DNA of 64,000 nt from Isoetes taiwanensis (lineage: Eukaryota; Streptophyta; Lycopodiopsida; Isoetales; Isoetaceae). Both the position numbers and the translations under genes were made by a program. Positions within the stretch are counted from its first letter, which is position 1, and each line of letters starts with the position of its first letter. Under the pieces are notes generated by a model. That model saw only the letters and a program-made list of their open reading frames with translations, did no database searches and was not told the DNA's origin. Below, piece by piece: positions 11,425 through 64,000 of the stretch. Location of the stretch: positions 23,514 to 87,513 of the forward strand of contig JAJEKV010000807.1 in the NCBI GenBank assembly GCA_021234155.1, given 5' to 3'.

Positions 11425-11450
11425 GTGGACCCAGAATTGGGGTGGTAGTG
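11425..11450 (-). repeat. Right terminal inverted repeat of A1
   Basis: It ends GGGGTGGTAGTG, the reverse complement of CACTACCACCCC. The next bases, TGA, do not match the ACA in front of the left end. Confidence 0.65.
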
Positions 11451-11457
11451 TGAAAAT

Positions 11458-11820
11458 GTGAGCATGCTTCAATTCTACAATTACCGGCTGGCAATCAGGA
11501 GATTAGATTGCAACCCACTGCTTTGTGCAGGCAAGCTAACACAACAATTCGATAGGGACATCTGCATACACCAAAAGGGTGGCGGCCTGAAGAAAATACC
11601 AATCACAAACCCAAACCTTGATCCCTTGGTTTATCCCATTCTCTTCCCTTTGGTGACCAATTTTGGAGGATAGGAATCAAGAAAGCAGAAACATCTTCCA
11701 CATCAACGTCTTCAAGGAAACATGAAAATATGAGCATGCTTCAATTCTACAATTACCGGCTGGCAATCAGAAGATTAGATTGCAACCCACCGCTTTTTGT
11801 GGGGCAAGCTAACACAACAA
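11458..11820 (+). repeat. Partial tandem duplication of the Rep 5' segment
   Basis: About 95 bp starting GAGCATGCTTCAATTCTACA at 11458 are repeated from 11731 with a few substitutions. The copies diverge after CTAACACAACAATTC. The second copy continues into the rest of the Rep region. Confidence 0.8.
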
Positions 11821-13575
11821 TTCATTGTTGATGTCTACTCGAGTGGAGGCAAATGAACTAAACTGGATTAAGCAAAACCAAAGGAAGTTGCGGGTCGAAG
11901 TTGTACCAAGGCCTTATTGACTACATAGACCACGAGGAGCAAAGCAAAGAGGCTTAAGATCCGGCAAGCTGGTCATCCTGCCCTCCTCACACACTGGCAG
12001 CCCGAGGGCAATGGAACAAAACTATCAGGATTCAATGGCCTTGATCCGAAGATTTGGCAAAGCCGATCTCTTTGTAACATTTACATCCAACCCAAATTGG
12101 ATAGAGATTAGACACAACACGCTTCTGGACAACAGCGCGCCGATGATAGGCCAGATTTGGTTGTACAGCGTATTCCACACAAAGCTCAAAGAGTTCTTTC
12201 ATGATCTCTTCGAAAATGATATCTTGGGCAAGGTGAAGGCGCACACTTACACTATATAGAGTTCCAAAAGCGAGGCTTGCCGCCTTTGCCACCTTCTCAT
12301 GATTCTCGAGCAACAAGACAAGATCCGGGATAGCGGCGCCATTGATGGCATCCGAGTCGCGGAGGTACCAGGCCCGAGAAAACCCCAAACTGCGAGATCG
12401 TCATCAAGCATATGGTCCACGGCCGCGCGGGGCCCTCAACCCAAACGCACCTTTGCATGCAAGCCAAGGAAGGCAGCCCAATAAAGGAATGCACAAAGGG
12501 ATATCCAAAGACATTTAATGACAATACCAAAGTCGGTGGTGCAAATGGCTACCCAGAGTGAGAAAGGCGGGATCTGGGCCACTTCATGAGGGGCAACACG
12601 CCTATTGACAACGGATGGATAGTTCCCCATAATCGATGGTATTCGCTTGAAAAATACGGCACATATCAATGTAGAGCGGTGTTTCAGCGTTGGGAGCATA
12701 AAGTATATCTACAAGTATATCCACAAAGGGCATGATCGAGCATCTATCAAGGTCCTTTAGAGAACCGAACCGGGGAATCAACATCCACATTCAATTGGGA
12801 CGAGGTGGAGCAATACCTTGATACGAGATCGTCTCTGCGGTGAGAAGCCATGTGGAGGTTATATGGGTACATGATGCATGGCAATTCCACACGATTACCA
12901 CAGACTACTGTTCATCGCCAAACAACCAAGGCGTGTATTATCAAGAAGGCCAAGAAAGACAAGCCATCGAGCGGCGGATGCAAAAAGCAAACAATCTTTG
13001 ACCGCATGGTTTGAGCTCAACAAACGACCGGTACCGCGTGAATACACTTACCCGCGAAATCCCCAAAGACTACATTTTGGCGCGCGGGGCGTCACGAAAA
13101 AGAGGAAGGGAAAGTTCAAGCTCATCACACGGATGTACAATGTGAGCCCTAAGGATGGTGACCGCTATTACCTTCGTCTTCTGTTGCTACATATCAAGGG
13201 TGCGACCAGCTTCGAAGACATGCGCACCGTCAATGGAAAACTATGTTCAACTTACAAAGAAGGCGCCAAAGAGCTCGAAACTTTTTGGAAGGCGATGCCG
13301 AGAGGGGAGAAGACACTTTCGAAGATGCGAGCAACTTTCGGATGCCAAAGCGGCTTCGTAAACATTCGCATTCATTTGCCGTACAATGACCCACAAGATC
13401 CAATGCGGCTATGGGAGCTCTTCAAGGATAGCCTGACAGAAGATTACCGACAACAGATGCCACAAGAGCAAGCTTACAACAATGCACTAAAAGACATTGA
13501 CGAAATTTTCCAGATGAGCGGCTGCACATGTCAGCAAACCACAACTAGACATTCTAGGCAACTTCCCAAATGAAC
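11731..13575 (+). pseudogene. Helitron Rep (replication initiator) region, broken
   Basis: In living Helitrons this region nicks and joins single-stranded DNA during rolling-circle transposition. Recognisable family segments appear in order but in changing frames: a piece around 11950-12110 ending in MEQNYQDSMALIRRFGKADL, then VHGRAGP and CTKGYPKTFNDNT (12410-12530), then a DEVEQYLDTRSS piece near 12800, then a long frame at 12878-13573 with LTAWFELNK, RMYNVSPKDGDRYYLRLLLL and GATSFEDMRTVNG. Stops and frame changes separate the pieces. The catalytic HUH and Tyr motifs cannot be confirmed because the middle is scrambled. It abuts the helicase remnant in the same orientation. Confidence 0.8.
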
Positions 13576-13598
13576 AGAACTTCGATGCAGAAAAGGAA

Positions 13599-15040
13599 TT
13601 GAAAGAGGGACAGGAAAACTACGGCAAGCTCAACAGGGAGCAAAAGCACATAGCCGACATTATCCTTGAGGCAATCAGCCAACATCAAGCCCCATGTATC
13701 AATGTGGACGGCCCAGGAGGCACGGGCAAGACTTTCCTCTTCAACAGCCTGATCAGTATACTAAGAGGATATGGTGTTGGTGTTGTATCAGTGGCTTGGA
13801 CAGGCATTGCCAGCCTCCTCTTGAAGGGAGCACAAACAGTCCATTCGACGTTCAAGTTACCACTCAACCTGACACAAGAGGCAACCTCCGCACTGCGTGC
13901 AACAAGCCAACAAGCAGAGGTACTTAGAAAGGCAAGCATCATGGTATGGGACGAAATGGGAATGACGCACACGCATGCACTCACCCCCCGTCGGCAGGGC
14001 TTTTACGCGAGATCGCCCCGGGGATGACGGGCCGTTGGAGGAATGATAATGCTCACCGTGGCGACTTTAAAAGCAGATTTGCTGTGGTCAAACGTGCAAC
14101 AAGGGCAGAAGTCATCTCGAAGTGTGTCAAGCGGAACCCACTGTGGACTAACTTCAGGACCCACAAGCTGACACAAAATATGCGGGTGGGAAAAGACGAA
14201 CAAATCTTCTCAAATTGGCTGCTACGTCTCGGTAACGGGGAACGGATGCATAATGAGCCAGGGCTCGACCGCGACTTGGTTGAGATACCCGAAGAATGTG
14301 TGGTGGAAGACGACTTGATTGACAGCATCTTCGGCAAGGAAATAACGGAGGCAAATGTGCACATGTTGTATGACAAAGCCATCCTGGCACCAAAGAATGA
14401 AGACACGCTGAAGATCAACGATAAGGTCCTCTTAAGGTTGAATGGACAACTCCATATATATACGAGCGTAGACACCATCATTGCAGAAGGCGAAGATGCT
14501 ACAAGGGACTTCCCAATCGAGTTCATCAACCACCTAACCCCTTCCGGCATGCCACCGCATAAGCTGCACATCAAAGACGGAGCCATCATCATCCTACTCA
14601 GAAACATGAACCCGAAGGCCGGTCTCTGCAATGGCACCCGCCTTCGCGTCATCAAAGCGCACCCAAGAATCATAGATGCAGAGATAATCACAGGCACCTA
14701 CAAAGGAACATGGGTCCTCATACCAAGGATAACCCTAGAGCCATCAGACAGTGACCTCCTCCCCTTCAAAGCGAAAGGCGGTTCCCGCGGCGACTTCGCA
14801 TTCTCGATGACAATCAACAAGTTGCAAGGCCAGTCCATGACCTTCGTTGGCATCTACCTACCAACGCCAGTTTTCACACATGGCCAGCTCTATGTCGCAT
14901 TCTCAAGGTGCACCACACAACACGGAGTGAAGGTATATATTCAAGATACCTCAAGACAAGGAATGCTGCTAAAAAACAATAGGAGGTTCACACCTAATGT
15001 AGTCTACAAAGAGATTCTACGAGATGAAATAGACGCTTAA
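13599..15040 (+). pseudogene. Helitron Pif1-type helicase region, frameshifted
   Basis: In Helitrons this domain unwinds DNA 5' to 3' during transposition. A first frame (13599-14027) carries LNREQKHIAD, the Walker A motif GPGGTGKT at codons 38-45 (13710-13733) and the Walker B-like MVWDEMG. The reading then shifts between about 13985 and 14060. A second frame (to 15040) carries GDFKSRFAVVKRATRAEV, LTQNMRV, GLCNGTRLRVI, FAFSMTINKLQGQS and HGQLYVAFSRC, the usual C-terminal helicase motifs. The second Met at 13946 is out of frame with the Walker part, so neither piece encodes a full helicase. The C-terminal half is long and open, so decay is fairly recent or incomplete. Confidence 0.85.
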
Positions 15041-15203
15041 TTTCTACAGATCTCTTCGTTTCTATTACACTGGACACCATTACTATGTAAAGAAGAATTT
15101 TTCCACAATAATAAAAATGTCACATTCATTATGCTTCATTATATTACATTTATGACAAAGAGTTTGAGCTGAATAGGTTATCCTTCACACATGTTTCAAC
15201 TTA

Positions 15204-15220
15204 TGCCCAGCAACGCTGGG
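15204..15220 (+). terminator. Helitron 3' hairpin of the Rep/helicase element
   Basis: GCCCAGCAACGCTGGGC is a 7-bp stem with a 3-base loop. It is the rolling-circle termination-type hairpin expected 10-15 bases before a Helitron CTRR end. The expected CTAG end is missing here because the next Helitron begins 10 bases later. Confidence 0.8.
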
Positions 15221-15230
15221 CACTATCTTA

Positions 15231-17463
15231 TCTTATATTATAATGTTATAGCGTAAGTATGTCATGAATGAAACCCTAATTTGGACGGTTGAGATCATCC
15301 AATTGCATTCGGAGGCCGAGATTTATCGCACGACTTTCCACCATTATGATTGGCCATGCTCTAATGTCTGAAGAGGAAAGGGAAAAGGGAGGAGAAAAGG
15401 GCAAAGTGAAAGGCAAAAAAGCACGGGTAAAAGGGAAAGAAAGAAAGAGAAAAAGGAAAGCGAAAAGAGCACGAAAAAGGGAAAGGAAAATAAAGCAAAA
15501 AATGACACTACGAAAAGTAGAAGATGGAAAGGATGGGAAGTTGAAAAGGGGATGAGGAAAAGGGTAGAGAGGAGGGAAGGGAAAAGGAAAAGGGAAAAGG
15601 AAAGAAAAGGGAAAGGGCAAGGCAAAAAGAAAGGGGGGAGGAGGAGGGAGGAAAAGGAACACTGGAAAGGGGGAGAGGAAAAAGGTGGGGAAAGGAGGAA
15701 AAGGAGGAGAAAAGGGCAAAGCTTAAAGGAAAAAAGGCCAATTAAAAAGGAAAAGGAAATGGAAAAGAGCACAAAAAAGAGAAAGGAAAAGAAAGAGAGA
15801 AAATAAAGGAAAAAGGACACTATGAAAAGGAGAAGAGGGAAAGGGTGAGCACAGGAGTAAAAGGGAAGGGAAAAAGGGGATGAGGAAAAAGGGTAGAGAG
15901 AAGGAAGGAAAAGAAAAAAAAAAAGGGAAAAGGGAAAGGGAAAGGGAAAAAAAAGGGAGAGGAGGAGGGAGTTAAAAGGGACAAGTGGGAAAGGGGGAAG
16001 AGGAGGAAAAGGGTGGGGAAAAGGAGAAAAAGGAAGGGAAAAGGACCGAAAAAAAAGGAAAGAAAAAGGGAGGGAAGAAGGGATGGAAAGGGAAAAAGCG
16101 AGGGAGGGGGCAAAAGGGAAAAAAAGGGCATGGGGAAAGAGGAAGAGAAAAGAAGGAGAGAAGAGAAAAAAAAATAAAGAGAGAAAGGAGGGAGGAAAGG
16201 GAAAAGGAAAAAGAAAAGAACAAAGGAGGGAGGAAAGGAAAAAAAAACTACGAGAAAAAGGGAAGAGGGAAATGGTGGGCAAAAGGGAAAAGAGGGAAGA
16301 GAAATAAAGGGAAGGGAAAAAGACATGAGAAAAAGAAAGGAAAAAGGAAAGAAAAAAAAAAAAGGAGGCGAAGAGAGAAAAATGGAAGGGAAAAAGGGCC
16401 AAAAAAAAGGAAGAGGAAAAAGGGCGGGAGAGGAGGAAAAGGGAAGGGAAAAAGGCCATTGGTAAAAGGGAAGGGGGAAAGGGAAGCGAAGGGGATGGAA
16501 TGAGAGAAAGGGAAAATAAAATAAGGTAAAAGAAAAAAGGAAATGTGAAAAGGGGAGGGGAAAAAGGGGAAGGGGGGAGATAAAAAAAGGAAAAGCAAGG
16601 AGGGGAAATGGAAAAGGCAAACGTGAAAAAAGTGGAAGCAAATGGAAAAATGCAAAAGGGAAAAAACGAGGGGTAAAATGTGAAAATAGAAAAGGAAGGT
16701 GAACAAAAAAGAAGAGCAAAATAGAAAAAGAAAAAAGAGAAGGAAAAAGGGGGGGAGGGAGGAGGAAAAGGTGAAGAAAGGGGAAAGGAGGAGCGAAAAA
16801 AGAGCATGAAAAATAGAAGAGAAAAGGGACATGGCGAAAAAGGGGAAGAGGGAAAAGGGTGAGGAAAAGGGAAAACCGAAGAAAAATGGACATGGAAAAA
16901 GGAAAGGAAAAGAGGGAAAAAAAAAAAAAGGAGGGCGAAAAAAAAGAAGGGAAAAGGGCACTAGAAAAAGGGAAGATGGAAGGGTTGGGCAAAGGAGGAA
17001 AAGGGAAGGGAAAAAGGGGAAAAAAGGGGGAGAAGGAGAGGAAAAGGGAAAAGAAAGGGGAATGAAAAAGGAAAACTTAGAAAAGAAGGGCACGAGGAAG
17101 GAAAAGGGGAAGAGGGGGGAAAGGGCACATGGAAAGGGAAAAAGGGCAACCACAAATTGGAGAAAAGGGAAGGGGAAAATAGAAAAGGAAAAATGGGGAA
17201 GCAGAAATAGAAAAGAGAAATAGAGGAAATGGAATAATGGAAAAAGAAAAAGGTAAATTGAAAAATGTAAAAAGGGAAAAGGGGCAAGGGGAAAATAGAA
17301 AAAAAAATAGTAGATAAAGGCAAAAGGAAAAGGGAAAAGGTGCAAAATATGGTTGAATGCTCTTGATTATCCAATTTTAAAAACACGAATCCATTTAACA
17401 ATTGCTCCAGTATATCATTCACAGTTTCTAGCTATGCCCAGCAACGCTGGGCACCTTAACTAG
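15231..17463 (+). mobile_element. Polypurine non-autonomous Helitron H1
   Basis: It starts TCTTATATTATAATG after an A and ends with hairpin GCCCAGCAACGCTGGGC (17436-17452) followed by CACCTTAACTAG, with T next. TC start, hairpin, CTAG end and insertion between A and T define a Helitron. After a ~130-bp 5' segment the body (about 15360-17340) is almost pure A and G on the plus strand, in irregular AAAGGGAA and GGAGGA blocks. It has no gene. Very long minus-strand frames here are composition artefacts. Its closest relative is H6 at 60655. Confidence 0.85.
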
Positions 17464-17475
17464 TATCTTATATTA

Positions 17476-19356
17476 TCTTATATTATAAAGTTTTAGCGTA
17501 TGTCTTGCATCAAACCCTAATTTAGATAGTTGAGATCGTCTGATTGCATTTGAAGGCCGAGATTTATCGCACAACTTCCCACCACCATGATTGGCCATGC
17601 TCTGATCTCTTAAGAGGAAAGGGAAAATGGCGAGAGAAAAGGCAAAGTGGGAGGCAAAAAGGCACGGTAAAAAGGGAAAGACGGAGAAGGAAAAAGGAAA
17701 GGGAAAAGAGCACGAAAAAGGGAAAGAAAAAGAAAGGGAGAAAAAGGAAGGAAAAAAAGACACTATGAAAAGGAAAAGGGGGAAAGGGTGAGGACAGAAT
17801 AAGGGAAAAGAAAAGGGGAAGGGAGGAAAAGGAAGAAAAAAGGGGCAACGGAAAAAATGTGAAGACGAAAAGGGTGACGGAAGGGAAAAAGGGGAAGATA
17901 AGAATGGTGGAGAGGGAAAAAAGGGCATGGAAAAATAGAAAGGGAAGGAAAAAGGAAAAAGGAGGCGAAAAAGGGAAAAGGGCATGAGGAAAAGGGAGAG
18001 GGAAATGAGAGAGGAAGGAGAAAGTGGCATGAGAAGAGGAAAAGGGTGAGGAAAAGGAAAAAAAGAAAGGGAAAAAGAGATGGAAAAAGGGAAAAGGAAA
18101 AAGCGAAAAGCAAAAAGAGAACAGAAAACATGCAATAGGAAAAGAGGAAAAGGGAAAAGGAGGAAAAAGGGCATGTGAAAAAGGTGGAAAAAATGGAATG
18201 GAAAAATGTATGGGAAAATGGAAAGGAAAAGAGAGAAGGAAAAAAAAGGGTGGAAAGGAAAGCGGAAAAGGGCATGGAAAAAGAGAAAAGGATGAAAAAA
18301 AGAAGGAAAAGGAAAAAGGAAATGGGAGGCGAAAAGGGAAAGGGGAAAGAAAAAAGAACACGAGGAATAAGGAGGGAAAATGGAAAAGAGGAAGGGAAAA
18401 AGGGCACGGAAAAAACTGGAAGAGGGAAAGGGTGAGGAAAGGGTAAAAATAAAGGGAAAAAGAGCATGGGGAAAGGGAAAAGAAAAAGAAAAAAGGGGAA
18501 TAGGGACGGGAAAAAGGGGAAGAGGGTAAGGAAAGGCGGAAGAAAAGGCAAGTAAAAAAAAGTGGAAAAAAGGGAATGGAAAAATACATGGGAAAAAGGG
18601 AAAAGGAAAAAGGAAAGAGAAAGGGAAAGGGAAAGGGAAAGGGAAAGGGAAAGGGAAAAGGAAAGGGGGAAGGAAAGAGGAAAAGGGCCGCAGAGGAAAA
18701 ATGGAAAGGGTGGGGAAATGATGAAAAAAGAAGGAAAGGGAAAAGGAAAAAGGGAGGCGGAAAGGGGGGAAGGAAAGGAAAAAAGACATGAGAAAAAAGA
18801 AAGAAGAAAATGGGAAAAAAGAGACATGAGATAAAGAAGAAGAGGGTGAGGAGAGGAAGAAAAACATAAAAAAAAGGTGGGGAAAAGGGAATGCAAAAAG
18901 GGCATGAGAAAAGGGAAGGGAAAAGAGAAAAGCAAAAGGAATGGGAAAAGGAAAGGGAAAAAAGATCATGAGAAAAATGGGAAGGGTGGAGAAAGGTGAA
19001 AAGGGAAGGAAAAAAACCGTCAAAAAAAGGGAAAGGGAAAGGGAAAAATGAGAAGGAGAAAAGGAAGAAAAAGAGGAGGGAGAAGAGGGTAAAAAAAAAG
19101 AGAGAGAAGGAGAAAAGTAAATGTGCAGGGAAAATAAGAAAAGGGAAAAAAGAAAGTGTGTAAGAAAATGAGGAAAAAAGGATATGCAGGATAGAGCAAA
19201 GGGAAGGTTATCAAATGCACAAAAACCTCTTATAGCCTAGCAATGATGGACTTGGTTTCTATTATATTAGATGTATAAAAATGAGTCTGAGCTGAATAGG
19301 TTTCCATCCACAAATGTTCCCAACATTTGCCCAGCAACGCTGGGCACCATTACTAG
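17476..19356 (+). mobile_element. Polypurine non-autonomous Helitron H2
   Basis: It starts TCTTATATTATAAAG (a start 10 bp earlier is possible) only 12 bp after the end of H1, in the same orientation. It ends with the hairpin at 19329-19345 and CACCATTACTAG, then T. The body (about 17610-19190) is polypurine on the plus strand. The 3' segment with GAGTCTGAGCTGAATAGG matches that of the Rep/helicase element. H7 at 62866 is a second copy. Confidence 0.85.
18612..18662 (+). repeat. (GGGAAA)n microsatellite
   Basis: A run of about seven GGGAAA units inside H2. A similar run sits in H6 near 61345-61378. Confidence 0.85.
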
Positions 19357-21385
19357 TTATAATGTTATAGCGTAAGTATGTCATGAATGAAACCCTAATT
19401 TGGATGGTTGAGATCATCCGATTGCATTCGGAGGTCGAGATTTATCGCACGACTTCCCTCCACCATGATTGGCCATGCTCTAATGTCTGAAGAGGAAAGG
19501 GAAAAGGAAAAGGGAGGAGAAAATGGCAAAGTGAAAGGCAAAAAAGGCACGGAAAAAAGGAAAAGAAAGAAAGGAAAAAGGAAAGCGAAAAAGCACCTAA
19601 AAAAGGGAAGGGAAAATAAAAGAAAAAAGGACACTATGAAAAGGAGAAGATGGAAAGGATGAGGATAGGAGTAAAAGGGAAGTTGAAAAGGGGATGAGGA
19701 AAAGGGTAGAGAAAAGGGAAGGGAAAAGGAAAAAGGAAAAGGAAAGAAAAGGGAAAGGGAAAGGAAAAGGTAAAAGAAAGGGGGAGGAGGAGGGAGTGAA
19801 AAGGAACACTGGGAAAGGGGAAGAGTAAAAAGGTGGGGAAAGGAGGAAAAGGGAGGAGATAAAGGCAAAGTGAAAGGAAAAAAAGGCACGGATAAAAGGG
19901 AAAAGGAAATAGAAAATAGCACAAAAAAAGAGAAAGGAAAAGTAAGAGAAAAAATAAAGGAAAAAATGACATTATGAAAAGGAGAAGAGGGAAAGGGTGA
20001 GGACAGGAGTAAAAGGGAAGGGAAAAAGGGGATGACGAAAAGGATAGAGAGAAGGGAAGGGAAAAGGAAAAGGGAAAAGGAAAGAAAAATGGAAAGGGAA
20101 AAAGAGGAGAGGAGGAGGGAGCGAAAAGGGACAGTGGGAAAGGGGGAGAGAAAAAAGGTGGGGAAAGGAGAAAAAAGGAAGGGAAAACGGACACAAAGAA
20201 AAAGGAAAGAGAAAAAGGGAGGAGAGATGGGATGGAAAGGGTAAAAGAAAAAAAAGCGAGGGAGGGCAAAAAAGGGAAAAAGGGCATGGGGAAAAGAGGA
20301 AGAGCAAAGAAGGAGAGAAGCGGAAAAAAGGAAGAGAAAGGAGGGAGGAAAGGGGAAAGGGAAAAAGAAAAGAACAAATGAGGGAGGAAAGGGAAAGAAA
20401 AAGACTACGAAAAGGGAAGAGGGAAAGGGTGGGCAAAGGAAGGAATAAATTGTAATTTGTTAAAAAGGGGAAGAGAAATAAAGGGAAGGGAAAAAAAGAC
20501 ATGAGAAAAAGAAAGGGAAAAAAGAAATAAAAAGGAGGCGGAAGAGAGAAAAATGGAAGGGAAAAAGGGCACGAAAAAAAGCAGAATAGAGAAAGGGTCG
20601 GGAGAGGAGGAAAAGGGAAGGGAAAAAGGCCATTGGTAAAGGGGAAAGGTGAAAGGGAAGTGAAGGGGATGGAATTGGAGAAAAGGAAAATAAAAATAAG
20701 GTAAAATGAAAAAGGAATGTGAAAAGGAGGGATAGAAAAAAGGAAAAGCAAGGAGGTTGAAAATGGAAAAGGCAAACGCGGAAAAAAAGTGGAAGCAAAT
20801 GGAAAAGGCAAAAGGGAAAAAACGGAGGTAAAGTGGAAAATAGAAAGGGAGGTGAATAAAAAGGAAGAGCAAAATAGAAAAGAAAAAAGAGAAGGAAAAA
20901 AAGGAAAAAGGAGGGGAGGAAGAAAAAAGGTGAAGAAAGGGGAAAAGAGGAAAAAAAAAAAGAGCATGAAAAAAATAGAAGAGAAAAGGGACATGGCAAA
21001 AAAGGGAAGAGGGAAAGGGTGAGGAAAGGGGAAAACCGAAGGAAAAATGGATATGGAAAAAGGGAAAGGGAAAGAGGGAAAAGAAAAAAAGAAGGGAAAA
21101 AAAGGAAGGGAAAAGGGCACTAGAAAAAAGGAAGATCAAGGGTTTGGGCAAAAGAGGAAAAGGGAAGGGAAAAAGGGAAAAAAAGAAAAGGTGGGGAGAA
21201 GAAAAGGGAAAAGGGAAAAGGAAAGGGGAAAGCAGAAAGGATACTCGAGTGCACAAAAACCTCTTATAGCCCAGCAACATTGAGCTTAATTTCTATTATC
21301 TAAGATTTATGAAAAGTGAGCTGAACATGTTTCCCTCCAGACAAGTTCCCAACTTATGCCCAGCAACGCTGGGCACCATTACTAG
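19357..21385 (+). mobile_element. Polypurine non-autonomous Helitron H3, 5' clipped
   Basis: Directly after the CTAG of H2 the sequence reads TTATAATGTTATAGCG, so this copy joins without the first bases TCTTATA. The end is complete: hairpin at 21358-21374 and CACCATTACTAG at 21374-21385, then T. The body (about 19490-21245) is polypurine. Both the 5' segment and the end resemble H1 and H2. Confidence 0.8.
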
Positions 21386-21790
21386 TAATGTTTTAATGTA
21401 AGTCTGTAGTGCATCGCGTTGGGCGGTTGAGATTTAACCTAAAAGATGGACGGCCCAGATAGCCTACGGTTTCTTTTCGCCTTTTTGGCTCCGGCGATAG
21501 GAAGAGGCTGTCGGATTCCTTTAGAAAGAGGCCGTAGTAGAGCTTCAGGGTTTCATTTGAGCATATTAGAGCCTGTCATTCCGGTGGTTTGGTGTTGACC
21601 ACAGATTCAAATTTCCTTATGTTTCTATCTTTCTTCCGTGGTTTTGTTATTCATTTGATTCTGCATGAAAGCGGAAAAACACAAGTACATATGGCTGCAA
21701 CCAAAATTGCCTCTTCTTACAGGAAACCGAGCAAATCCATTGTCTGCCATAGCCAAAGTACCAATCAAAAGGGGCAGCACCAGGTATTTT
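21386..21790 (+). mobile_element. 5' remnant of a further Helitron with exon-like sequence (H4)
   Basis: The first 40 bp (TAATGTTTTAATGTAAGTCT, then a GGGCGGTTGAGATTT segment) resemble the 5' segment of H1-H3, again without the TC start. The body is not polypurine. Near its end CTTCTTACAG is followed by about 61 bp and then CACCAG/GTATTTT, which looks like an internal exon of a captured gene; I cannot name it. A CACTA-like end at 21791 cuts the element. Confidence 0.5.
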
Positions 21791-24639
21791 CACTACCACC
21801 CCAAAACTAGGTCCAATAGTTTCAATTGGGGCACCCACTGATTCGACCGACTGGTTCGGTTTCCATATAGGGGTATTGGCCGATCATTAATCGCTCCTGT
21901 TAACACCTGCATTAATATCTCGGCCTCCCTTATTTGCAAATAGAAACCTAAGGTTGCATTACGACAAAGGCAAGAAATGTAAGCAGAAGCAGATGAAATC
22001 GGATATCGGGAAAAGGGTTGTCAGGTGATTTGGTGATGCCGCCAACAGAGTGTTTCTTTGTTCTATTTTATGGTGAAAATCTTCATCTCTTAAGAACCGC
22101 AGCCATGGCCATAACTTTCTTGAGCATCCTAGCCTTGCCAGAAAGCATAGCCATAGCAGAACGAAATGGGTCTAGATATGGCAGCTATAGCTTCAGGCGA
22201 CTGAGCTATGGTGGAAAAGAGGCAGATGTCAAAGTTTTGTCTTGATTCACCATCTGCAGTGGTCCTGTTTGCATCTCACAAATTACCTGTGGGAGCCCAT
22301 ACATGCCATGCTTTTCTACAGTTGCAGGATTATGTAAATTCGGCCTCTCCAGGCAAACCATAAGACCCAGCGAGTATCCATAGTACAGGCAACTAACCCT
22401 GCACGAATCTAAAACTTCAAGCAATTAAAATATTACCCAACTCTTTTGCAAGAGCTCGAATTAGAGATAACAAGAATTAGATAGAGCATGATTACAGAAC
22501 CTCTTTTTGTGAAATGCTAGGAACACAGCAGATACGCACTTGAATCAAACAAAAGAATTCCATGATCCATTCAAACGCCTTGTATTTCGCTTCTATGCAT
22601 ACCCGCCACATAGCTACTCCGACCATATAGCTGTAAATCCGGTCTGCATATCCACAAATCCGTCACTACTCCACCGCCCTTGCTCTGTTGTAGACAAAAA
22701 CATACCCAAAAATGCTGCCGCCATAGCCACTCACGAAGATCAAGAATATGAATGAAGAGAATCGAGAAACAGAAGGGAAAGAGGAGGGGAGAGAAGGCAC
22801 AGAACATGGCGGCAAGGCAAAAACAAAATGGCGGGGATTTTGATCTTGCCCCCTATTCTCGGCCGTGCAAAATCAAAATGGTGGGGATCACGATTTGCCC
22901 CTTTAATCTCAGCCGTTACTTTCAGAGCCAATAAGGTGAAAGGATGAGGATCTCAATCTGAGCCATTTATCCCATATTCACCCCAGCCGTTGAATACAAT
23001 ATTGCTTTATCACAAGTGAAAATTATTATTTTCAATTCCTCACCATATATTTTATTTATCTGCTCCTTTTTACTCAATATATACTGATAGGCTTTGAAAT
23101 ATTGGCAATGCTTTGTTGTTGCGACATCATCATCTATCTAAAGCCTATAGGTCATTAGCAAGGTCTATCTAAAGACCCCAACCAAAGGTTGAATGACCCA
23201 CCCAACTGGGAAAGATGTCGCCCTTCGTTTGCAGTTACCGGAGATAGACATGATTAGAAGGGATGCAGGGAGATAGAAGCGACCCAAAACAACACAATGC
23301 GGGGATCAATCTTGGATGTTAATAGCGGTCGTTAAACTAAGGCCAAATGGATCGTCAAATTTCATCTAAAATATATTGTTCAATCAAATGTTATAACTAA
23401 AATTGTAATAGCGCCTAGAAAAACACTATCTGACGATTAGGCTGATGCAATATCTGGCGAATAGTCTGACGCAAAATCTGATGATATATGAGTAATTTTC
23501 TGACGATTATTCTGACGCAAATTCTGACGCTGAACCTGACACAAATTCTGACGCAAATTCTGACGCTTAACCTGACGAAGGCTTCTGACGATTTATGTGA
23601 CGATATGTCTGACGTAGTATCGTCAGGAAAAGCATCAAAATAGTAATCGTCGATGCGTTAATTCGGCTTTATACGTCGGGCAAAAATCTCTCTAGAAGCG
23701 ATCGGCGATTTTTTTCGACAAAAATGCTCATTCTCTTGTAGTGGTTGGATCTAACCATTGAAGTTATTTTTCGCGAATGTAAAACAATACGATACATTCC
23801 CAAAGTTGAGCAACAAACAATATTCTAGGTGGTGGTGCTTTGCTTAAGAAATAGCCTCAAAAAACCATACTTCCTTAAGAAATAGCTGCGTAAAAACGAC
23901 GCCGCCGTAAAACCACACTACGTAAAAACAGCCACTTAAAAACTACACCTACTTAAAAACCATACCTCAAAAAACCATACTTACTTTAAAAAATAGCTAC
24001 ATAAAAACTATACCTAGTTATATAAACCACACCAAAAAAAATCATATTTCCTTAAAAATAGCTTCTTAAATACTACACCTAGTTATAAACTACACCACTT
24101 CAGAAAACCATACTTCATTAAAAAAAAGACCACTTAAAAAACTACACCGCTTATAAACCACACTTCAAAAACCGTACTTCTAAAAAAAAAACAGCTATTT
24201 AAAAACTACACCCACTTATAAACGACACCTCAAAAAACAACACCTCGATTAAAAAAATCATACCACTTCAGAAAACCATGCTTCCTTAAAAAACAACCAA
24301 TACCTCCTTATAAACCACAGTTCAAAAAACTATACTTCCATAAAAAAAACGACTACTTAAAAACTACACCTAGTTATAAACTACACCTCAAAAACAACAC
24401 CTTCTTAAAACAACACCCCCCTCAAAAAAATAAGCAACACTTCTTTTAAAAAAAAATGACACCTCAAAAAAAAGACCACACCTTCAAAAAAAAAAACTAT
24501 AGCTCCATAAAAAAAACTACTTTGCCTCCTTAATAAACCACATCTCCACATAACCACATGTAAATTTTTTGGAACAACGACATGTGGTCTTTTTGTTACT
24601 GTTGTTTTTAGGTGTGGACCCAGAATTGGGGTGGTAGTG
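21791..24639. mobile_element. CACTA-like non-autonomous piece (A2)
   Basis: The left end CACTACCACCCCAAAACTAG and right end GGGGTGGTAGTG form an inverted repeat of about 24 bp. The right 1.3 kb (23350-24639) is collinear with the right end of A1, including the CTGACG cluster (23410-23730) and the ACTACACC subterminal repeats. The 3-bp flanks TTT and ACA do not match each other, while ACA matches the left flank of A1. So this may be an internal part of a 24.6-kb composite rather than a separate insertion. Confidence 0.55.
22200..22930 (-). other. Possible captured gene fragment in A2
   Basis: Read on the minus strand, this stretch begins with a moderately GC-rich promoter-like area and ATG codons near 22807 and 22716. 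It has a short open frame at 22424-22206 with ATVEKHGMYGLPQ just before CCCACAG/GTAATT, an exon-donor look. I do not recognise the protein. Gene-fragment capture is common in CACTA elements, but nothing here proves function. Confidence 0.3.
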
Positions 24640-40641: not shown

Positions 40642-41350
40642 TACATTTAGATTGTTATAATAACAATGGTTTGTTAAATTCTGCATTACTTTTGAACAAT
40701 ATCCTAGATGTTTTAATATCAAACTGCATTAGAATCGGAAAATGATGTATAAACCAATATCAATTGACCTAACAAAGCACCAATAAATTTTCAAATTGTG
40801 TATGTTCTATATTTAACAAACCATTACCAATTGCATTGTCCAAGACACCTTGCTTTTAATCGATACAAAATAGGTTTAAGGCGCAAGGCTTTACTATCTT
40901 GATGACAAAACCACCCGTAGTTAGTTAATATTTTGTAATAAGAAGTAAACATTTTCTTGCATGGATCATTTGAAAAAGAGTAGACAACTTCATAAGAAAA
41001 CCACTGTAAGTTGCACGAACAAGTGAAAGCTAAAATTATTAGTGGTTTATGCATCCCCTACCTAATAAATCAAATAAACAAACTACCATGAAAGCTAAAA
41101 TTAATAGTGGTTTATGGCTCCCCTATCTAAAATATAGCAATAAATCAAATAAACAAACTACCATAAAAAATCATGATGGTGAACTCTGAAAATAAACTAG
41201 CAAAACATAACATATACAAGAACCACATTGTATAACTAGTAGTGGTTATTCAACACATTAACCCACTTAGTGATATTAGTTTATGATAGTGGTTTTATGG
41301 AAAAACTATTGTAGAAAACTGATAATGATTATTTTTTGGGGGCCTTGTGA
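40642..41350. other. AT-rich spacer
   Basis: It contains a local duplication (GAAAGCTAAAATTA, AGTGGTTTATG, AATAAATCAAATAAACAAAC near 41025-41165). No coding frame or element end is seen. Confidence 0.5.
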
Positions 41351-42287
41351 CACATGCATGCATTCACTTGCATGGCGCCGGAATGGAGGGGGGGCATGAC
41401 TTGTCTTTGTGCGTTATGCATGTGGAATTAGAGGATGAACCATAAGAGATCACTAAGAGCAAGTCGACCTAATGCAAGCCAACCCTTCCTCGCGTAGCCA
41501 GGGTTTAGAAACACAGTGATCTTGAACCGCACGAGCTAATTCCCAAGGAAATTTACCCAAGTGCCTCTCCGTATTGGGAAAATTACGCGAATGCATCCGA
41601 GGCGAGGTGTTTTGCCATAATGGAAATAACTTTTTTCTGGCTCGCCCGTTTTGCAGATAGAGGAGACTAAGACCTTTACAACGGCAGTAAGGTCATATCA
41701 AACGGAGTTCGGATCTTCGACTTATAGTGTTTTTATCGTTTGTTTTGTGGATAACAAAATTAAAACAACACATCTTTGTGCATTGCAACTCCTTGTTGGT
41801 TCTAGCAAAAAGTAGGGGCATTGTCTACCTCAAACAAAACGTCATGCCAATGTACAAAAATAAGGACCCTCCTTTAAGTTATCGGACCACGAGAACTTCA
41901 ACTGTCCACAAGCACCGGACGTCTTAATGTGGTACATCCAATGATGAAAGATTCCTACTTGTATAAAATGCATGTGCACATTGTAAAGGCAAGATTTCTG
42001 GATCACGAGTTTCATCAATTAGTAATGTTCGCCCAGAGGCGACTTTTAGACCAAATTATGCGGTCCATAATTCAATAGAACTTGTCCTTGTCTACCTTTT
42101 GCAGTCGTGGTAAAATTGGGTTTAAATACAGATAACGTTAAAATTACCATGGAACCGATGCCCAAGAAGCTACTAAACAAAGGACAAATGCGAACCCCAC
42201 TGCATGAGAAAATAAAAAAGTCGTTTTATGTGATCATGATCTGTTGTTCTATTACATTTGGCTCTATGCCATGGAACAATGCAATTT

Positions 42288-43009
42288 CTATGCCACTAGC
42301 AAGGGCCGGATCCTTCTTGCCCTCCTCTCCTCACGTCAGATTCGCCTCTCCCTTCTCTCGTCGGCCTTCACGCCCCATCCTCCTCTCGGATCTTGGCGTC
42401 ACCTCTTCTAGTGTCCCTTTCCACTTCTCGACTTTCAAAGTCCCTAGTAATCGCTCCTCTCCATTCCCTCCCGCCATCTCTCTCCCAAAGACTAGCTCCC
42501 TCTCCATCCCTCTGGTCATTTCTCTCTCTGTGCCTAGTGTCGACAATCATGTCATAACCCAAATGCTCCCCACGTTCCCTATCTTCCCTTCTTGAGAGCT
42601 GATCAATCTCATAGTGCTCCTCATTTCTTTGCCTGACTCTATCTTCTCTTCGTGGCAAAACATCAAGATTGTCTTCTTGCCTCCCATGTTCATATCTTCT
42701 CCTCGTCTCCATTGCATCTCCAAAATGTCTCTCGCCTCGTTGGCTCTCCCTGGATGCGATTGAACCAAACTCTCGAGATCGAGTACCCTCCTCAGTTTGT
42801 TCACGTCTACGGGATTCCCTCGACAGGGGACGAGACCTTTCCAGACCACCAACGACGAAGTCGGACTCTAATGCCCCGCCTCTCAATACCAACACATCGG
42901 AAGAAAGAACTGGAACCAAGAGGGTGGCGAACATGGCTGCAAGCAATGCGAGAAACAATGCCATCTGGCTCATCTTGTCGCTACCAAGCACGTCATGGCA
43001 ATAGGCCAT
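42288..43009 (-). pseudogene. Array gene copy U1, frameshifted near the C-terminus
   Basis: The minus-strand frame starts at 43009 with the same leader as U3 and stays open for 213 codons to 42368. A short indel near 42395 then diverts the last part, giving REEDGA at the end instead of the 241-codon form. Smaller differences in the middle (GGALESDFVVGG) show compensating indels. Whether it still yields a product is unknown; the leader and the first charged half are present. Confidence 0.55.
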
Positions 43010-43539
43010 TATATGGACACCAATTGCGGTTTATATTAGCATGCAAATGATGATGCTCACATAGGTATACCATGCAAGTGTGCACCATGCACTCGAGCAT
43101 CCACATGCATGCATTCACTTGCATGGGCCGAATGGAGGGGGGCACGACTTGTCTTTTGTGCGTTATGCATGTAGAATTAGAGGATGAACCATAAGAGATC
43201 ACTAAGAGCAAGCCGACCTAATGCAAGCCAACCGATCTTGAACCGCACGAGCTAATTCCCAAGGAAATTTACCCAATTGCCTCTCCATATTGGGAAAATT
43301 ACGCGAATGCATTCGAGGCGAGGTGTTTTGCCATAATGGAAATAACTTTTTTCTGGCTCATAAAATGAGAAAATTTCGCCATTTTGCAGATAGAGGAGAC
43401 TAAGACCTTTTCAACGGCAGTAAGGTCATATCAAACGGAGTTCGGATCTTCGACTTATAGTGTTTTTATCCTTTGTTTCGTGGATAACAAAATTAAAACA
43501 ACACATCTTTGTGCATTGCAACTCCTTGTTGGTTCTAGC

Positions 43540-44092
43540 CAATGTTGTTAAAAAACCCGTTTTTTATTTTTAAAGTACCTCTATAAAAATCTTCACGTTT
43601 TTTAAAGGATTTTTATGATTTGGTATGGCCAAAAAACAAAATTGCACATTCTTTGCACAGTTTCATTGGACATATTTACTACCAAAACATGGCATGCCAT
43701 CAAGTAAATCAGAAACTTATGCTGCTACTAGAAACTATTAAGTTCAAGTACAAAGATATCATAGCTATTTTGCCATGCAACTTTTAAGAAAGTTCATAAA
43801 AAACATTATTATAGAGGTTAAGATATATAAGAATTCTATATAGAAAGATAAATAAGTTCAAGAATATCATATATTTGGATAAAAAAAATCACAATCTAAG
43901 GATTTTTAAGGATTTTTAAGGATTTTTAAAGATTTTTAAGGATTTTTAAAGATTTTTAAGGATTTTAAAGATTTTTAACGTATTTTATATAAAATACGTT
44001 TTAAAGATTTTTTCCAAAAATTTTAAAAATCTTCAAAAAATCTTAAAAAACGTTTTTTAAACGTACGGATTTTGACGTACTTAACAACATTG
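43540..44092. mobile_element. hAT-like MITE (553 bp) in unit U2
   Basis: It is flanked by the 8-bp duplication GTTCTAGC (43532-43539 and 44093-44100); the other units show the empty site TTGGTTCTAGCAAAAAG. The ends CAATGTTGTTAA and TTAACAACATTG form a perfect 12-bp inverted repeat, a common hAT MITE form. The inner sequence carries tandem GGATTTTTAA units (about 43895-43975) and the palindrome CGTATTTTATATAAAATACG. There is no coding capacity. Confidence 0.9.
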
Positions 44093-44583
44093 GTTCTAGC
44101 AAAAAGTAGGGGCATTGTCTACCTCAAACAAAACGTCACGCCAATGTACAAAAATAAGGACCCTCCTTTAAGTTATCGGACCACGAGAACTTCAATTGTC
44201 CACAAGCACCGGACGTCTTAATGTGGTACATCCAATGATGAAAGATTCCTACTTGTATAAAATGCATGTGCACATTGTAAAGGCAAGATTTCTGGATCAC
44301 GAGTTTCATCAATTAGTAATGTTCGTCCAGAGACGACTTTTAGACCAAATTACTGGTCCATAATTCAATAGAACTTGTCCTTGTCTACCTTTTTGCGGTC
44401 GTGGTAAAATTGGGTTTAAATCTGAGGATAACGTTAAAATTACCATGGAACCGATGCCCAAGAAGCTACTAAACAAAGGACAAATCACGAACCCCACCGC
44501 ATGAGAAAATAAAAAGTAGTTTTATGTGATCATGATCTGTTGTTCTATTACATTTGGCTCTATGCCATGGAACAATGCAATTT

Positions 44584-45313
44584 CTATGCCACTAGCAAGG
44601 GCGGATCCTTCTTGCCCTCCTCTCCTCGCGTTCAGATTCGGGCTCTCCCTTCTCTCGGCTTCGGGCTTCACGCCCCATCCTCCTCCGGATCTTGGCGTTC
44701 ACCTCTTCTAGTGTCCCTTTCCACTTCTCGACTTTCAAAGTCCCTAGTACTGGCTCCTCTCCATTCCCTCCCCGCCATCTCTCTCCCAAAGACTACCTCC
44801 TCTCCATCCTCTCTGGTCATTTCTCTCTCTGCACCTAGTGTCGACAATCATGTCATAACCCAAATGCTCCCCACGTTCCCTATCTTCCCTTCTTGAGAGC
44901 TGATCAATCTCATAGTGCTCCTCATTTCTTTGCCTGACTCTATCTTCTCTTCGTGGCAAAACATCAAGATTGTCTTCTTGCCTCCCATGTTCATATCTTC
45001 TCCTCGTCTCCATTGCATCTCCAAAATGTCTCTCGCCTCGTTGGCTCTCCCTGGATGCGATTGAACCAAACTCTCGAGATCGAGTACCCTCCTCAGTTTG
45101 TTCACGTCTGCGGGATTCCCTCGACAGGGGACGAGACCTTTCCAGACACACCAACGACGAGTCAGACTCTAATGCCTCGCGGCCTCTCAATACCAACACA
45201 TCGGAAGAAGAAACTGGAACCAAGAGGGTGGCGAACATGGCTGCAAGCAATGCGAGAAACAATGCCATCTGGCTCATCTTGTCGCTACCAAGCACGTCAT
45301 GGCAATAGGCCAT
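44584..45313 (-). pseudogene. Array gene copy U2, frameshifted
   Basis: The minus-strand frame from 45313 matches the U3 protein through the leader and the central RREDR repeats, then shifts near 44790 and ends at 44744 after 189 codons (ending GEGMERSQY). The remaining charged tail is readable in another frame (44789-44592). The MITE in the same unit lies to the left of the gene, outside it. Confidence 0.6.
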
Positions 45314-46311
45314 TATATGGACACCAATTGCTGTTTATATTAGCATGCAAATGATGATGCTCACATAGGTATACCATGCAAGTGTGCACCATGCACTCGA
45401 GCATCCACACATGCATGCATTCACTTGCATGGCGCCGGAATGGAGGGGGGGCACGACTTGTCTTTGTGCGTTATGCATGTAGAATTAGAGGATGAACCAT
45501 AAGAGATCACTAAGAGCAAGCTGACCTAATGCAAGCCAACCGATCTTGAACCGCACGAGCTAATTCCCAAGGAAATTTACCCAATTGCCTCTCCATATTG
45601 GGAAAATTACGCGAATGCATTCGAGGCGAGGTGTTTTGCCATAATGGAAATAACTTTTTTCTGGCTCATAAAATGAGAAAATTTCGCCATTTTGCAGATA
45701 GAGGAGACTAAGACCTTTTCAACGGCAGTAAGGTCATATCAAACGGAGTTCGGATCTTCGACTTATAGTGTTTTTATCGTTTGTTTCGTGGATAACAAAA
45801 TTAAAACAACACATCTTTGTGCATTGCAACTCCTTGTTGGTTCTAGCAAAAAGTAGGGGCATTGTCTACCTCAAACAAAACGTCACGCCAATGTACAAAA
45901 ATAAGGACCCTCCTTTAAGTTATCGGACCACGAGAACTTCAACTGTCCACAAGCGCCGGACGTCTTAATGTGGTACATCTAATGATGAAAGATTCCTACT
46001 TGTATAAAATGCATGTGCACTTCTGGATCACGAGTTTCATCAATTAGTAATGTTCGTCCAGAGATGACTTTTAGACCAAATTACTGGTCCATAATTCAAT
46101 AGAACTTTTCCTTGTCTACCTTTTGCAGTCGTGGTAAAATTGGGTTTAAATCCAGATAACGTTAAAATTACCATGGAACCGATGCGCAAGAAGCTACTAA
46201 ACAAAGGACAAATGCGAACCCCACTGCATGAGAAAATAAAGAAGTCGTTTTATGTGATCATGATCCGTTGTTCTATTACATTTGGCTCTATGCCATGGAA
46301 CAACGCAATTT

Positions 46312-60635: not shown

Positions 60636-60654
60636 TCAATCTTATATTATCTTA

Positions 60655-62865
60655 TCTTATATTATAATGTTATAGCGTAAGTATGTCATGAATGAAACCC
60701 TAATTTGGACGGTTGAGATCATCCAATTGCATTCGGAGGCCGAGATTTATCGCACGACTTTCCACCATTATGATTGGCCATGCTCTAATGTCTGAAGAGG
60801 AAAGGGAAAAGGGAGGAGAAAAGGGCAAAGTGAAAGGCAAAAAAGCACGGGTAAAAGGGAAAGAAAGAAAGAGAAAAAGGAAAGCGAAAAGAGCACGAAA
60901 AAGGGAAAGGAAAATAAAGCAAAAAATGACACTACGAAAAGTAGAAGATGGAAAGGATGGGAAGTTGAAAAGGGGATGAGGAAAAGGGTAGAGAGGAGGG
61001 AAGGGAAAAGGAAAAGGGAAAAGGAAAGAAAAGGGAAAGGGCAAGGCAAAAGAAAGGGGGAGGAGGAGGGAGTGAAAAGGAACACTGGGAAAGGGGAAGA
61101 GGAAAAAGGTGGGGAAAGGAGGAAAAGGGAGGAGAAAAGGGCAAAAGTTTAAAGGAAAAAAAGGCACGGGTAAAAAGGAAAAGGAAATGGAAAAGAGCAC
61201 AAAAAAGAGAAAGGAAAAGAAAGAGAGAAAATAAAGGAAAAAAGGACACTATGAAAAGGAGAAGAGGGAAAGGGTGAGCACAGGAGTAAAAGGGAAGGGA
61301 AAAAGGGGATGAGGAAAAGGGTAGAGAGAAGGGAAGGGAAAAGAAAAAGGGAAAGGGAAAGGGAAAGGGAAAGGGAAAAAAGGGAGAGGAGGAGGGAGCG
61401 AAAAGGGACAGTGGGAAAGGGGAAGAGGAAAAGGGTGGGGAAAGGAGAAAAAAGGAAGGGAAAAAGGACCCGAAAAAAAAGGAAAGAGAAAAAGGGAGGG
61501 AAGAAGGGATGGAAAGGGAAAAAGCGAGGGGAGGGGCAAAAGGGAAAAAGGGCATGGGGAAAAGAGGAAGAGAAAAGAAGGAGAGAAGAGAAAAAAATAA
61601 AGAGAGAAAGGAGGGAGGAAAGGGGAAAGGGAAAAAGAAAAGAACAAAGGAGGGAGGAAAGGGAAAGAAAAAAACTACGAGAAAAAGGGAAGAGGGAAAT
61701 GGTGGGCAAAGGGAAAAGAGGGAAGAGAAATAAAGGGAAGGGAAAAAAGACATGAGAAAAAGAAAGGAAAAAAGGAAAGAAAAAGGAGGCGGAAGAGAGA
61801 AAAATGGAAGGGAAAAAGGGCACGAAAAAAAGCGGAAGAGGGAAAGGGTCGGGAGAGGAGGAAAAGGGAAGGGAAAAAGGCCATTGGTAAAAGGGAAGGG
61901 GGAAAGGGAAGCGAAGGGGATGGAATGAGAGAAAGGGAAAATAAAATAAGGTAAAAGAAAAAGGAAATGTGAAAAGGGAGGGAAAAAGGGGAAGGGGAGA
62001 TAGAAAAAGGGAAAAGCAAGGAGGGGGGAAATGGAAAAGGCAAACGCGAAAAAGTGGAAGCAAAATGGAAAATGCAAAAGGGAAAAACGAGGGGTAAAAT
62101 GTGAAAATAGAAAAGGAAGGTGAACAAAAAAGAAGAGCAAAATAGAAAAATAAAAAGAGAAGGAAAAAAGGGGAGGGAGAGGAGGGAAAAGGTGAAGAAA
62201 GGGGAAAAAACAGAGTTTTAAAAAGAGCATGAAAAATAGAAGAGAAAAGGGACATGGCTTAAAAAGGGAAGAGGGAAAGGGTGAGGAAAAGGAAAACCAA
62301 GAAAATGGACATGGAAAAGGGAAAGGGAAAGAGGGAAAAGAAAAAAAGGAGGGCTTAAAAAAGAAGGGAAAAGGGCACTAGAAAAGGGAAGATGGAAGGG
62401 TTGGGCAAAGGAGGAAAAGGGAAGGGAAAAGGGAAAAAAAAGGAGAAGGAGAGGGAAAAGGGAAAAGAAAGGGGAATGCGAAAAGGAAAACTTAGAAAGA
62501 AGGGCACGAGGGAAAAGGGGAAGAGGGGGAAAGGGCACATGGAAAGGGAAAAGGGCAAACAAATTGGAGAAAAGGGAAGGGGAAAATAGAAAAGGAAAAT
62601 GGGGAAGGAAATAGAAAAGAGAAATAGAGGAAATGGAATAATGGAAAAGAAAAAGGTAAATTGAAAATGTAAAAAGGAAAAGGGGCAAGGGGAAAATAGA
62701 AAAAAAAATAGTAGATAAAGGCAAAAGGAAAAGGGAAAAGGTGCAAAATATGGTTGAATGCTCTGATTATCCAATTTAAAAAACACCTAATCCATTTAAC
62801 AATTGCTCCAAAGATATCATTCATAGCGAAGGCTAGCCAAAGAACGCCTGGGCAACCTTAACTAG
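60655..62865 (+). mobile_element. Polypurine non-autonomous Helitron H6 (copy of H1)
   Basis: It starts TCTTATATTATAATG and is nearly identical to H1 through the 5' segment and along the polypurine body (about 60790-62740). The end is decayed: the hairpin is unrecognisable (AAAGAACGCCTGGGC), but CCTTAACTAG and the following T are kept. It inserts directly after the CCT5 remnant. Confidence 0.85.
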
Positions 62866-64000
62866 TATTATAAAGTTTTAGCTGCATGTCTTCAATCAAA
62901 CCCTAATTTAGATAGTTGAGATCTGCCTTATTGCATTCGGAAGGCCGAGATTTATCGTGACAACTTCCCACCACCGTGATTGGCCATGCTCGATCTTTAA
63001 GAGGAAAGGGAAAATGGCAGAAAAGGGCAAAAGTGAGAGGCAAAAAGGCACGTAAAAGGGAAAGACTGAGAAGGGAAAAGGAAAGGGAAAAGAGCACGAA
63101 AAAGGGAAAAAGAAAAGAAAGGGAGAAAAAGGAAGAAAAAGGACACTATGAAAAGGAAAAGGGGGAAAAAGGGCGAGGACAGAATAAGGGAAAAGAAAAG
63201 GGGAAGGGAGAAAAGGAAGAAAATAGGGCAACGGGAAAAGGTGAAGACTAAATCCGGGACTTTAAGGGAAAAAAGGGAAGATAAGAATGATGGAGAGAAG
63301 GAAAAAGGGTGGAAAAATAGAAAGGGGAAGGAAGAAGGAAAAAGGAGGCAAAAAGGAAAAAGGGCATGAGGAAAGGGGAGAGGGAAATGAGAGAGGAAGG
63401 AGAAAGTAGCACGAGAAGAGGAAAAAGGGTGAGGAAAGGAAAAAGAAAGGGAAAAAGAGATGGAAAAGGAAAAGGGAAAAGGGAAAAGCGAAAAAGCAAA
63501 AAGCAAAAAGAGAATAGAAACATGGAATAGGAGAAGGGAAGAGGGTGGGAAAAGGAGGAAAAGGGCATGTGAAAAAGGTGGAAAAAAAATGGAATGGAAA
63601 AGGTGCGGAAAATGGAAAGGAAAAGAGAGAAGGAAAAAAAAAAAGGGTGGAAAAGGAAAGAGGAAAAGGGCATGGAAAAGAGAAAATGATGAAAAAAAAG
63701 AAGGAAAAGGGAAAAGGAAATGGGAGGCTTAAAGGGGAAAGGGGAAAGAAAAAGAACACGAGGAATAAGGAGGGAAAAATGGAAAAGAGGAAGGAAAAAG
63801 GGCAATAAAAAACCAGAAGAGGGAAAGGGTGAGGAAAGGTAAAAATAAAGGGAAAAAAGAGCATAGGAAAGGGAAAAAAAGGGGAATAGGATGGGGAAAA
63901 GGGGAAGAGGGTAAGGAAAGGACAAGAAAAGGCAAGGCAAAAAAGTGGAAAAAGGGAATGGAAAATACATGGGAAAAGGAAAAGGAAAAGGAAAGGGTGC
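62866..64000 (+). mobile_element. Polypurine non-autonomous Helitron H7 (copy of H2), runs off the window
   Basis: It begins TATTATAAAGTTTTAGC immediately after H6, without the first TCTTA, and follows H2 in the 5' segment and polypurine body (from about 63000). The 3' end is outside the window. Confidence 0.8.

Follow-up and report, generated by a model that had tools for sequence, protein, structure and literature searches.

Layout of the Helitron array

The DNA analysed, hereafter the window, is a stretch of 64,000 nucleotides from Isoetes taiwanensis (assembly GCA_021234155.1, contig JAJEKV010000807.1, positions 23,514 to 87,513 of the forward strand). Five Helitron pieces, named E0, H1, H2, H3, and E5, were found head to tail on the plus strand at 11451-21790 (Table 1). 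This run had been proposed from the letters alone (the original prediction) and was borne out by direct reading and by a script, which also placed hairpins of the sequence GCCCAGCAACGCTGGGC with starts at 15205, 17436, 19329, and 21358. Measured from the hairpin or CTAG that precedes each, the joints lay at 9, 12, 0, and 0 bp, within 1 bp of the 10, 12, 0, and 0 bp predicted.

Both canonical termini, TC at the 5′ end and CTRR at the 3′ end, were present in H1 and H2 as TCTTATATTATAAWG and CTAG. H3 had CTAG and a cut 5′ end, E0 lacked its 5′ end and CTAG, and E5 lacked its first bases and its 3′ end. In canonical Helitrons a hairpin stands about 10-12 bp before the 3′ end; in H1, H2, and H3, GCCCAGCAACGCTGGGC was followed by 11 bp up to the end of the element. 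Relative to the commonest terminus, 7 bases were absent from H3 and 10 from E5. In the original prediction three 5′ ends were short of a few bases; here those of H3 and E5 were cut in this way, that of E0 was absent altogether, and H1 and H2 had complete TC ends. The 10-bp stub TCTTATATTA at the H1/H2 joint was identical to the bases absent from the 5′ end of E5. The bodies of H2 and H3 were purine-rich like that of H1, with the hairpin and CTAG in common, and no coding was recognised in the H1 body.

Table 1. Coordinates of the array, its joints, and related features in the window (a slash marks a joint; TIR, terminal inverted repeat)
Feature	Position	Strand	Description	Basis
E0	11451..15221	+	5′-truncated, frame-broken autonomous-type Helitron with Rep-region and PIF1 helicase pieces	Pfam, hairpin 15205-15221
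Joint E0/H1	15222..15230	+	ACTATCTTA, 9 bp: remainder of the E0 3′ end plus stub-like TATCTTA	sequence
H1	15231..17463	+	purine-rich body, complete A/TCTTATATTATAATG 5′ end, hairpin 17436-17452, CTAG	5′ profile, alignment, sequence
Joint H1/H2	17464..17475	+	12-bp spacer TATCTTATATTA: TA plus TCTTATATTA	sequence
H2	17476..19356	+	other subfamily, complete A/TCTTATATTATAAAG 5′ end, hairpin 19329-19345, CTAG	5′ profile, alignment
H3	19357..21385	+	H1-type, 5′ end starts at TTATAATG (first bases displaced), hairpin 21358-21374, CTAG	5′ profile, alignment, sequence
E5	21386..21790	+	5′ fragment of an older Helitron-like element, starts TAATGTTTTAATG (first bases displaced), bounded by a CACTA-type element	sequence
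Right-hand CACTA-type element	21791..24639		TIR CACTACCACCCC	TIR sequence
Second H1-H2 pair	60640..64000	+	stub TCTTATATTATCTTA (60640-60654), H1 from 60655, CTAG/TATTATAAAG, to contig end	alignment, 5′ profile

Helitron joints in the genome

The genome (1.66 Gb) was searched with exact patterns. The 3′-end pattern had 5161 matches, a few of them counted twice owing to its variable gap. A hairpin with CTAG/T, followed by 0-30 bases and AAWGTTWTA, was matched 252 times on the same strand and the reversed control 0 times; the same pattern with A, C, or G after CTAG had no match genome-wide. Complete 5′ ends were preceded by A in 1914 cases and by CTAG in 116, the latter being exact joints of the form CTAG/TCTTATATTATAAWGTTWTA. 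These numbers fit insertion between A and T. The observation by which the original prediction was to be refuted, copies with full TC ends at ordinary sites, was made in part. A simpler search suggested there, for CTAG followed by TTATAATG, was uninformative, with 82 matches (31 + 51) against 116 (65 + 51) in the control, in contrast to the 252 and 0 of the longer hairpin pattern.

Among 100 of the 252 joints that were listed, 37 had the TC terminus at the joint and 30 had an A^T cut within the canonical terminus, with the downstream sequence starting at TAAWG (21), TATTATAAWG (7), or TTATAAWG (2). The remainder started at TATATTATAAWG (4), had a spacer (7), or were of other kinds (22). Sequences were fetched for 19 of the 21 TAAWG joints, 6 of the 7 TATTATAAWG joints, 1 of the 2 TTATAAWG joints, and all 4 TATATTATAAWG joints, 30 in all; no sequences were taken from the spacer class or from the other kinds. 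The TAAWG joints left out were that of the window and C229:98206, which looked like a duplicate, and the unfetched TTATAAWG joint was again that of the window. For the exact joints, 100 of the 116 were listed and 20 were fetched, one from every third contig, namely its first match in the list. The terminus TCTTATATTATAAWG is 90% A+T over 20 bp, as compared with 61% in 50 joint loci fetched.

Since a newcomer brings a complete TC end, the element downstream of a truncated joint is the older of the two, with its own 5′ end cut at A^T. The repeated insertion put forward in the original prediction was therefore supported in substance and not in its target, because CTAG/T is G^T and not A^T; insertion after CTAG was rejected as the target at truncated joints on the ground that the cut end belongs to the downstream element.

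Two further arrangements were seen among the joints. At locus L027 and at G000:C986:17950-17983 the sequence was CTAG/TTACTAG/TAATG, which looks like insertion into the 3′ terminus of a Helitron itself abutting another 5′ end. On contigs C1018 and C1076 of G000, several exact joints stood tens to hundreds of kb apart, and these clusters are possibly local duplications of Helitron pairs.

Displaced bases of resident elements

If a newcomer lands at TCTTATATTA^TAAWG, the first ten bases of the resident must lie to its left. The genome contained 20 such stubs before a complete 5′ end (TCTTATATTA/TCTTATATTATAAWG) and 51 CTAG/TAAWGTTWTA joints after a hairpin-type end. For 6 of the 20 stubs (on contigs C23, C561, C908, C1012, C1078, and C1098), the complementary CTAG/TAAWG joint was found within 5 kb on the same strand, where about 0.002 such pairs were expected by chance (hand estimate). 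Both halves were read within one locus at L009, L072, and L073, and L011 was a seventh case of displaced bases, with a slightly different newcomer end. Displaced resident bases thus lay on the far side of the insert at seven loci: six others and the window, where the order of the pieces was unexpected. Among the 17 of the 20 stubs that were fetched, 15 were preceded by A. In 14 of these 17 loci there was no 3′ end within the 2.6 kb read; one of the 14, L065, is the C1012 case, which was paired through the joint search.

Orientation of the insertions

The internal site TCTTATATTA was followed by an inverted 3′ end in 22 cases, giving 22 insertions in the opposite orientation against 51 in the same orientation (binomial P 0.0009 for a 1:1 ratio; the strictness of the two patterns is similar and not equal). 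The matching right half was found at three of the opposite cases, on C948, C1025, and C1058. Both orientations are predicted by an A^T target and not by read-through.

The exact 5′ boundary behaved differently, with 116 same-strand joints and 0 opposite ones among the 15 matches of the opposite-joint search, which detects only newcomers with a canonical 5′ end. About 8 opposite exact joints were expected, for which the probability of finding none is about 3e-4; this is a rough scaling from 5 right halves to 51 internal joints, with 0.7 of the exact joints assumed to have a similar hairpin (as had 15 of the 20 fetched). Instability of perfect palindromes may be the reason for the lack of opposite exact joints, against which stands the survival of opposite insertions with a 10-bp offset. 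It is conceivable, though we hold it doubtful, that resident Helitrons serve as landing sites of fixed polarity, the transposase nicking the resident A^TC and a different newcomer being joined into the nick, so that the orientation would be fixed and the joint would be an exact CTAG/TC. As the source of the exact-boundary joints, such nick-joining is the more speculative part of our account. The contrast in orientation between the boundary and the site 10 bp inside it provides a testable clue to how a Helitron transposase picks or makes its target.

Relationship among the array members

H1 and H3 were 85% identical over 1948 columns, with 116 mismatches. Between H1 and H2 the sole match over 250 columns was the first approximately 265 bp (85%). 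The 3′ ends of E0, H1, H2, and H3 were alike at 0.64-0.75, as compared with 2190 between-locus pairs whose median was 0.61 and whose 95th percentile was 0.71. Judged by these alignments, the members belong to different subfamilies and are not copies of one element, so read-through of a single element fails to explain the array. E0, H2, and H3 (0.74-0.75) are therefore related, yet far below the 0.98 of the near-identical dimer at locus L054 described below.

A second H1-H2 pair is present near the contig end (Table 1). Its H1 was 93.3% identical to that of the array, whereas its H2 is cut inside its own 5′ end at CTAG/TATTATAAAG, and its left flank and joint differ from those of the first pair. 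Between the two pairs, mismatches amounted to 2.1% in H1 (48 in 2274 columns) and 5.0% in H2 (59 in 1175); other H2 copies differed from the H2 of the array by 3.0-4.7%, and that of the second pair was no closer. From this contrast and from the differing joints it follows that the pair was made twice and was not copied as a unit, and a copied H1-H2 dimer was rejected. H1-type elements thus took up a place before H2-type elements at least twice. In a search with the H1/H2 joint, two of the matches spanning the joint had different spacers ahead of an H2-type 5′ end (CTAG/TA/TC on C1032 and CTAG/TC on C977).

When the contig end (60655-64000) was aligned with the 15.2-18.6 kb copy, 83 gap openings were counted, together with the 48 mismatches over the 2274 columns of H1; so many small gaps suggest low consensus quality at this end.

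Origin of the array

Taken together, the array is probably a nested stack of independent Helitron insertions. A newcomer would insert between A and T in, or a few bases from, the AT-rich 5′ terminus TCTTATATTATAAWG of a resident, or, in the case of E0, near the resident's 3′ terminus. It would bring a complete TC...CTAG, and the first bases of the resident would be displaced to its left, so that the result reads head to tail. A Rep/helicase transposase presumably made the insertions, and the terminus may be a hot spot because it is AT-rich and Helitrons prefer AT-rich targets. An order of events can be proposed for the window, and we claim no unique one. With H1 set aside, the bases from the E0 hairpin to H2 read AC-TA-TCTTATA-TCTTATATTA, and the pieces absent from H3 (TCTTATA) and from E5 (TCTTATATTA) are both present to the left of H2.

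Several observations weigh against this explanation. The displaced pieces of H3 and E5 lie in the reverse of the order given by simple nesting of E5, H3, and H2. Three ways out can be considered: ends of H3 and E5 that differed by one TTA, entry of H2-H3 into E5 in one piece, or reworking of the surroundings of H1; for the first of these, the predicted E5 end ATCTTATATAATGTTTTAATG, a 3-bp TTA variant, had no match in the genome search. E5 is itself a weak member: it was not matched by the 5′-end profile, and its likeness, 71% over 217 columns, is to the stretch found at another truncated joint, L027. The 3′ ends of E0, H2, and H3, at 0.74-0.75, are more alike than the between-locus 95th percentile. 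In the H1/H2-joint search, in which the best 40 candidates were scored, 8 of the 41 non-query matches spanned a joint of an H1-3′-type end with a 5′ end; such pairs therefore recur, and some of them may not be independent events. The bias of 116 to 0 at the exact boundary is not predicted by plain insertion.

The genome-wide sets have weak points of the same bearing. Of the 19 TAAWG joints fetched, three had the stub (L009, L011, and, through the stub search, L019), and at 12 the 2.7 kb upstream contained no 5′ end of the family at which to look for a stub. An upstream 5′ end without a stub was found at L023 and L033; the partners at L033 are of one subfamily (0.93), and this locus may represent a dimer that has undergone a small loss. 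At four of the 19 (L023, L024, L026, and L027) the 5′ profile did not recognise the downstream sequence, and the 51 joints may therefore include some that are not of Helitrons. Among the 20 stubs, 13 had no identified 3′ end or partner; locus L074 was read to the 3′ end, where other sequence and no resident end follows, and L066 is in an inverted arrangement. Left flanks are common to L068 and L071 and to L063 and L065; therefore, the 20 stubs are not all independent.

The original prediction also offered rolling-circle read-through past the terminator, which, like integration of a multimer, would make the array a concatemer. Exact CTAG/TC joints are indeed common (116), none of the 15 opposite-search matches lay at an exact boundary, and such joints have been proposed as tandem repeats in bats (as reported in the part of PMC2267711 consulted). 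One locus also has the form expected of a concatemer: L054 (G000:C1038:6758838-6763238) is a full-length head-to-tail dimer of one subfamily, 1865 + 1856 bp and 98.9% identical, with an exact CTAG/TC joint and flanked by the A and T of its target. In the window, however, H1, H2, and H3 are of different subfamilies, H3 and E5 start inside the terminus where read-through would leave a complete TC at every internal joint, and read-through does not yield cut 5′ ends together with displaced stubs. At the exact joints fetched, moreover, the 3′ ends of the two partners were comparable at 7 of the 20, and only L054 (0.98) stood out from the other six (0.54-0.71); a forward upstream 5′ end was found in 4 of the 20, which were alike at L054 (0.97) and unlike at L047, L052, and L053 (0.62-0.69). 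A concatemer origin of the array was rejected on account of the unlike members and the cut 5′ ends, and we consider it very improbable. Among the exact joints compared, read-through fits only L054, which is the best candidate for a real case, and it may thus also occur in this genome.

An older mixed dimer, such as H2-H3, might instead have entered E5 as one unit, with H1 arriving separately. The stub TCTTATATTA directly to the left of H2 matches the absent bases of E5, with H2 and H3 lying between, and the problem of order at E5 would disappear; the second H1-H2 pair, which is not a copy of a unit, speaks against such entry, and we regard it as unlikely, though less so than a concatemer. An assembly error or collapse could be suspected in an unplaced contig of only 87.5 kb whose last 3.3 kb carries 83 gap openings in 2274 columns against the first copy. 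Like joints are nevertheless present on contigs 20-53 Mb long, and at several loci the halves from stub and joint match to the base, making an error the least credible of the explanations. What could be tested mostly favours insertion into the 5′ ends of resident elements.

Comparison with known Helitron arrangements

Consecutive head-to-tail insertion of Helitrons is already published for maize and fungi, and what is new here is the large set of joints on which the mechanism can be tested. Head-to-tail Helitrons have hitherto been read either as rolling-circle concatemers or as consecutive insertions; the hundreds of joints in this genome can serve to separate the two origins by truncation, displaced stub, likeness of partners, and orientation.

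In the parts of the sources consulted, the nearest parallel is a head-to-tail pair in maize explained by consecutive insertions, for which an A^T consisting of an A of the host and the T that starts the resident was discussed (PMC2267711). The exact CTAG/TC joint and the unlike contents are as in our loci; the maize case is a single pair, and no truncated 5′ ends or stubs are described in that part, whereas 252 joints, A^T cuts, and both orientations were found here. In Fusarium and Metarhizium, self-inserted and tandem Helitrons have multiple 5′ termini from self-insertion (Mob DNA 2016, PMC5148889). Likewise, one Helitron had entered the 5′ end of another or lay 2 bp ahead of it; those termini are non-canonical, the cases are few, and a tandem triplet was left undecided between insertion and rolling circle. 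Maize Helitrons were also found to insert preferentially near others, with nesting that gives multi-terminus elements (BMC Genomics 2011, PMC3288121), and the portion consulted holds no analysis of joint position or orientation. Helraiser (Helibat1) has an A^T target, prefers AT-rich surroundings, and forms precise CTAG-TC junctions in circles (PMC4778049, PMC5876387). The target and the junction resemble those described here; Helraiser was studied experimentally in human cells, and no targeting of resident ends is described in the sections consulted. The part of PMC3789558 consulted contains nothing on tandem copies. The orientation contrast was absent from the titles and abstract openings surveyed, which did not cover work on centromeric Helitrons, and no claim of absence is made.

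Coding remains and flanking sequences

Helitron-family matches were obtained for 3 of the 4 protein pieces of E0 searched, the fourth having no match. In Pfam they were Helitron_like_N (E 8.6e-27), PIF1 (E 3.7e-32), and Pif1_2B (E 6.3e-18). E0 thus carries pieces of the Rep and PIF1 helicase of autonomous Helitrons, in a broken frame and with the N-terminal part and the CTAG end missing. Visual inspection of the approximately 5.9 kb that precede the left CACTA-type end (L002), where no protein search was made, revealed no recognisable 5′ half of E0. By eye, approximately 100 bp of the Rep coding region occurs twice within E0 (11451-11548 and 11722-11820), with another part of the reading frame between.

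The array is flanked by two ends, at 11426-11450 and 21791-21815, which we take from the TIR to be of CACTA type. The 5′ part of E0 and the rest of the E5 body are both lost where the array adjoins them. Farther to the right, blocks of tandem repeats were observed at 41350-47700 and 53035-60035, with a period near 1.7-1.8 kb and copies approximately 88-98% alike.

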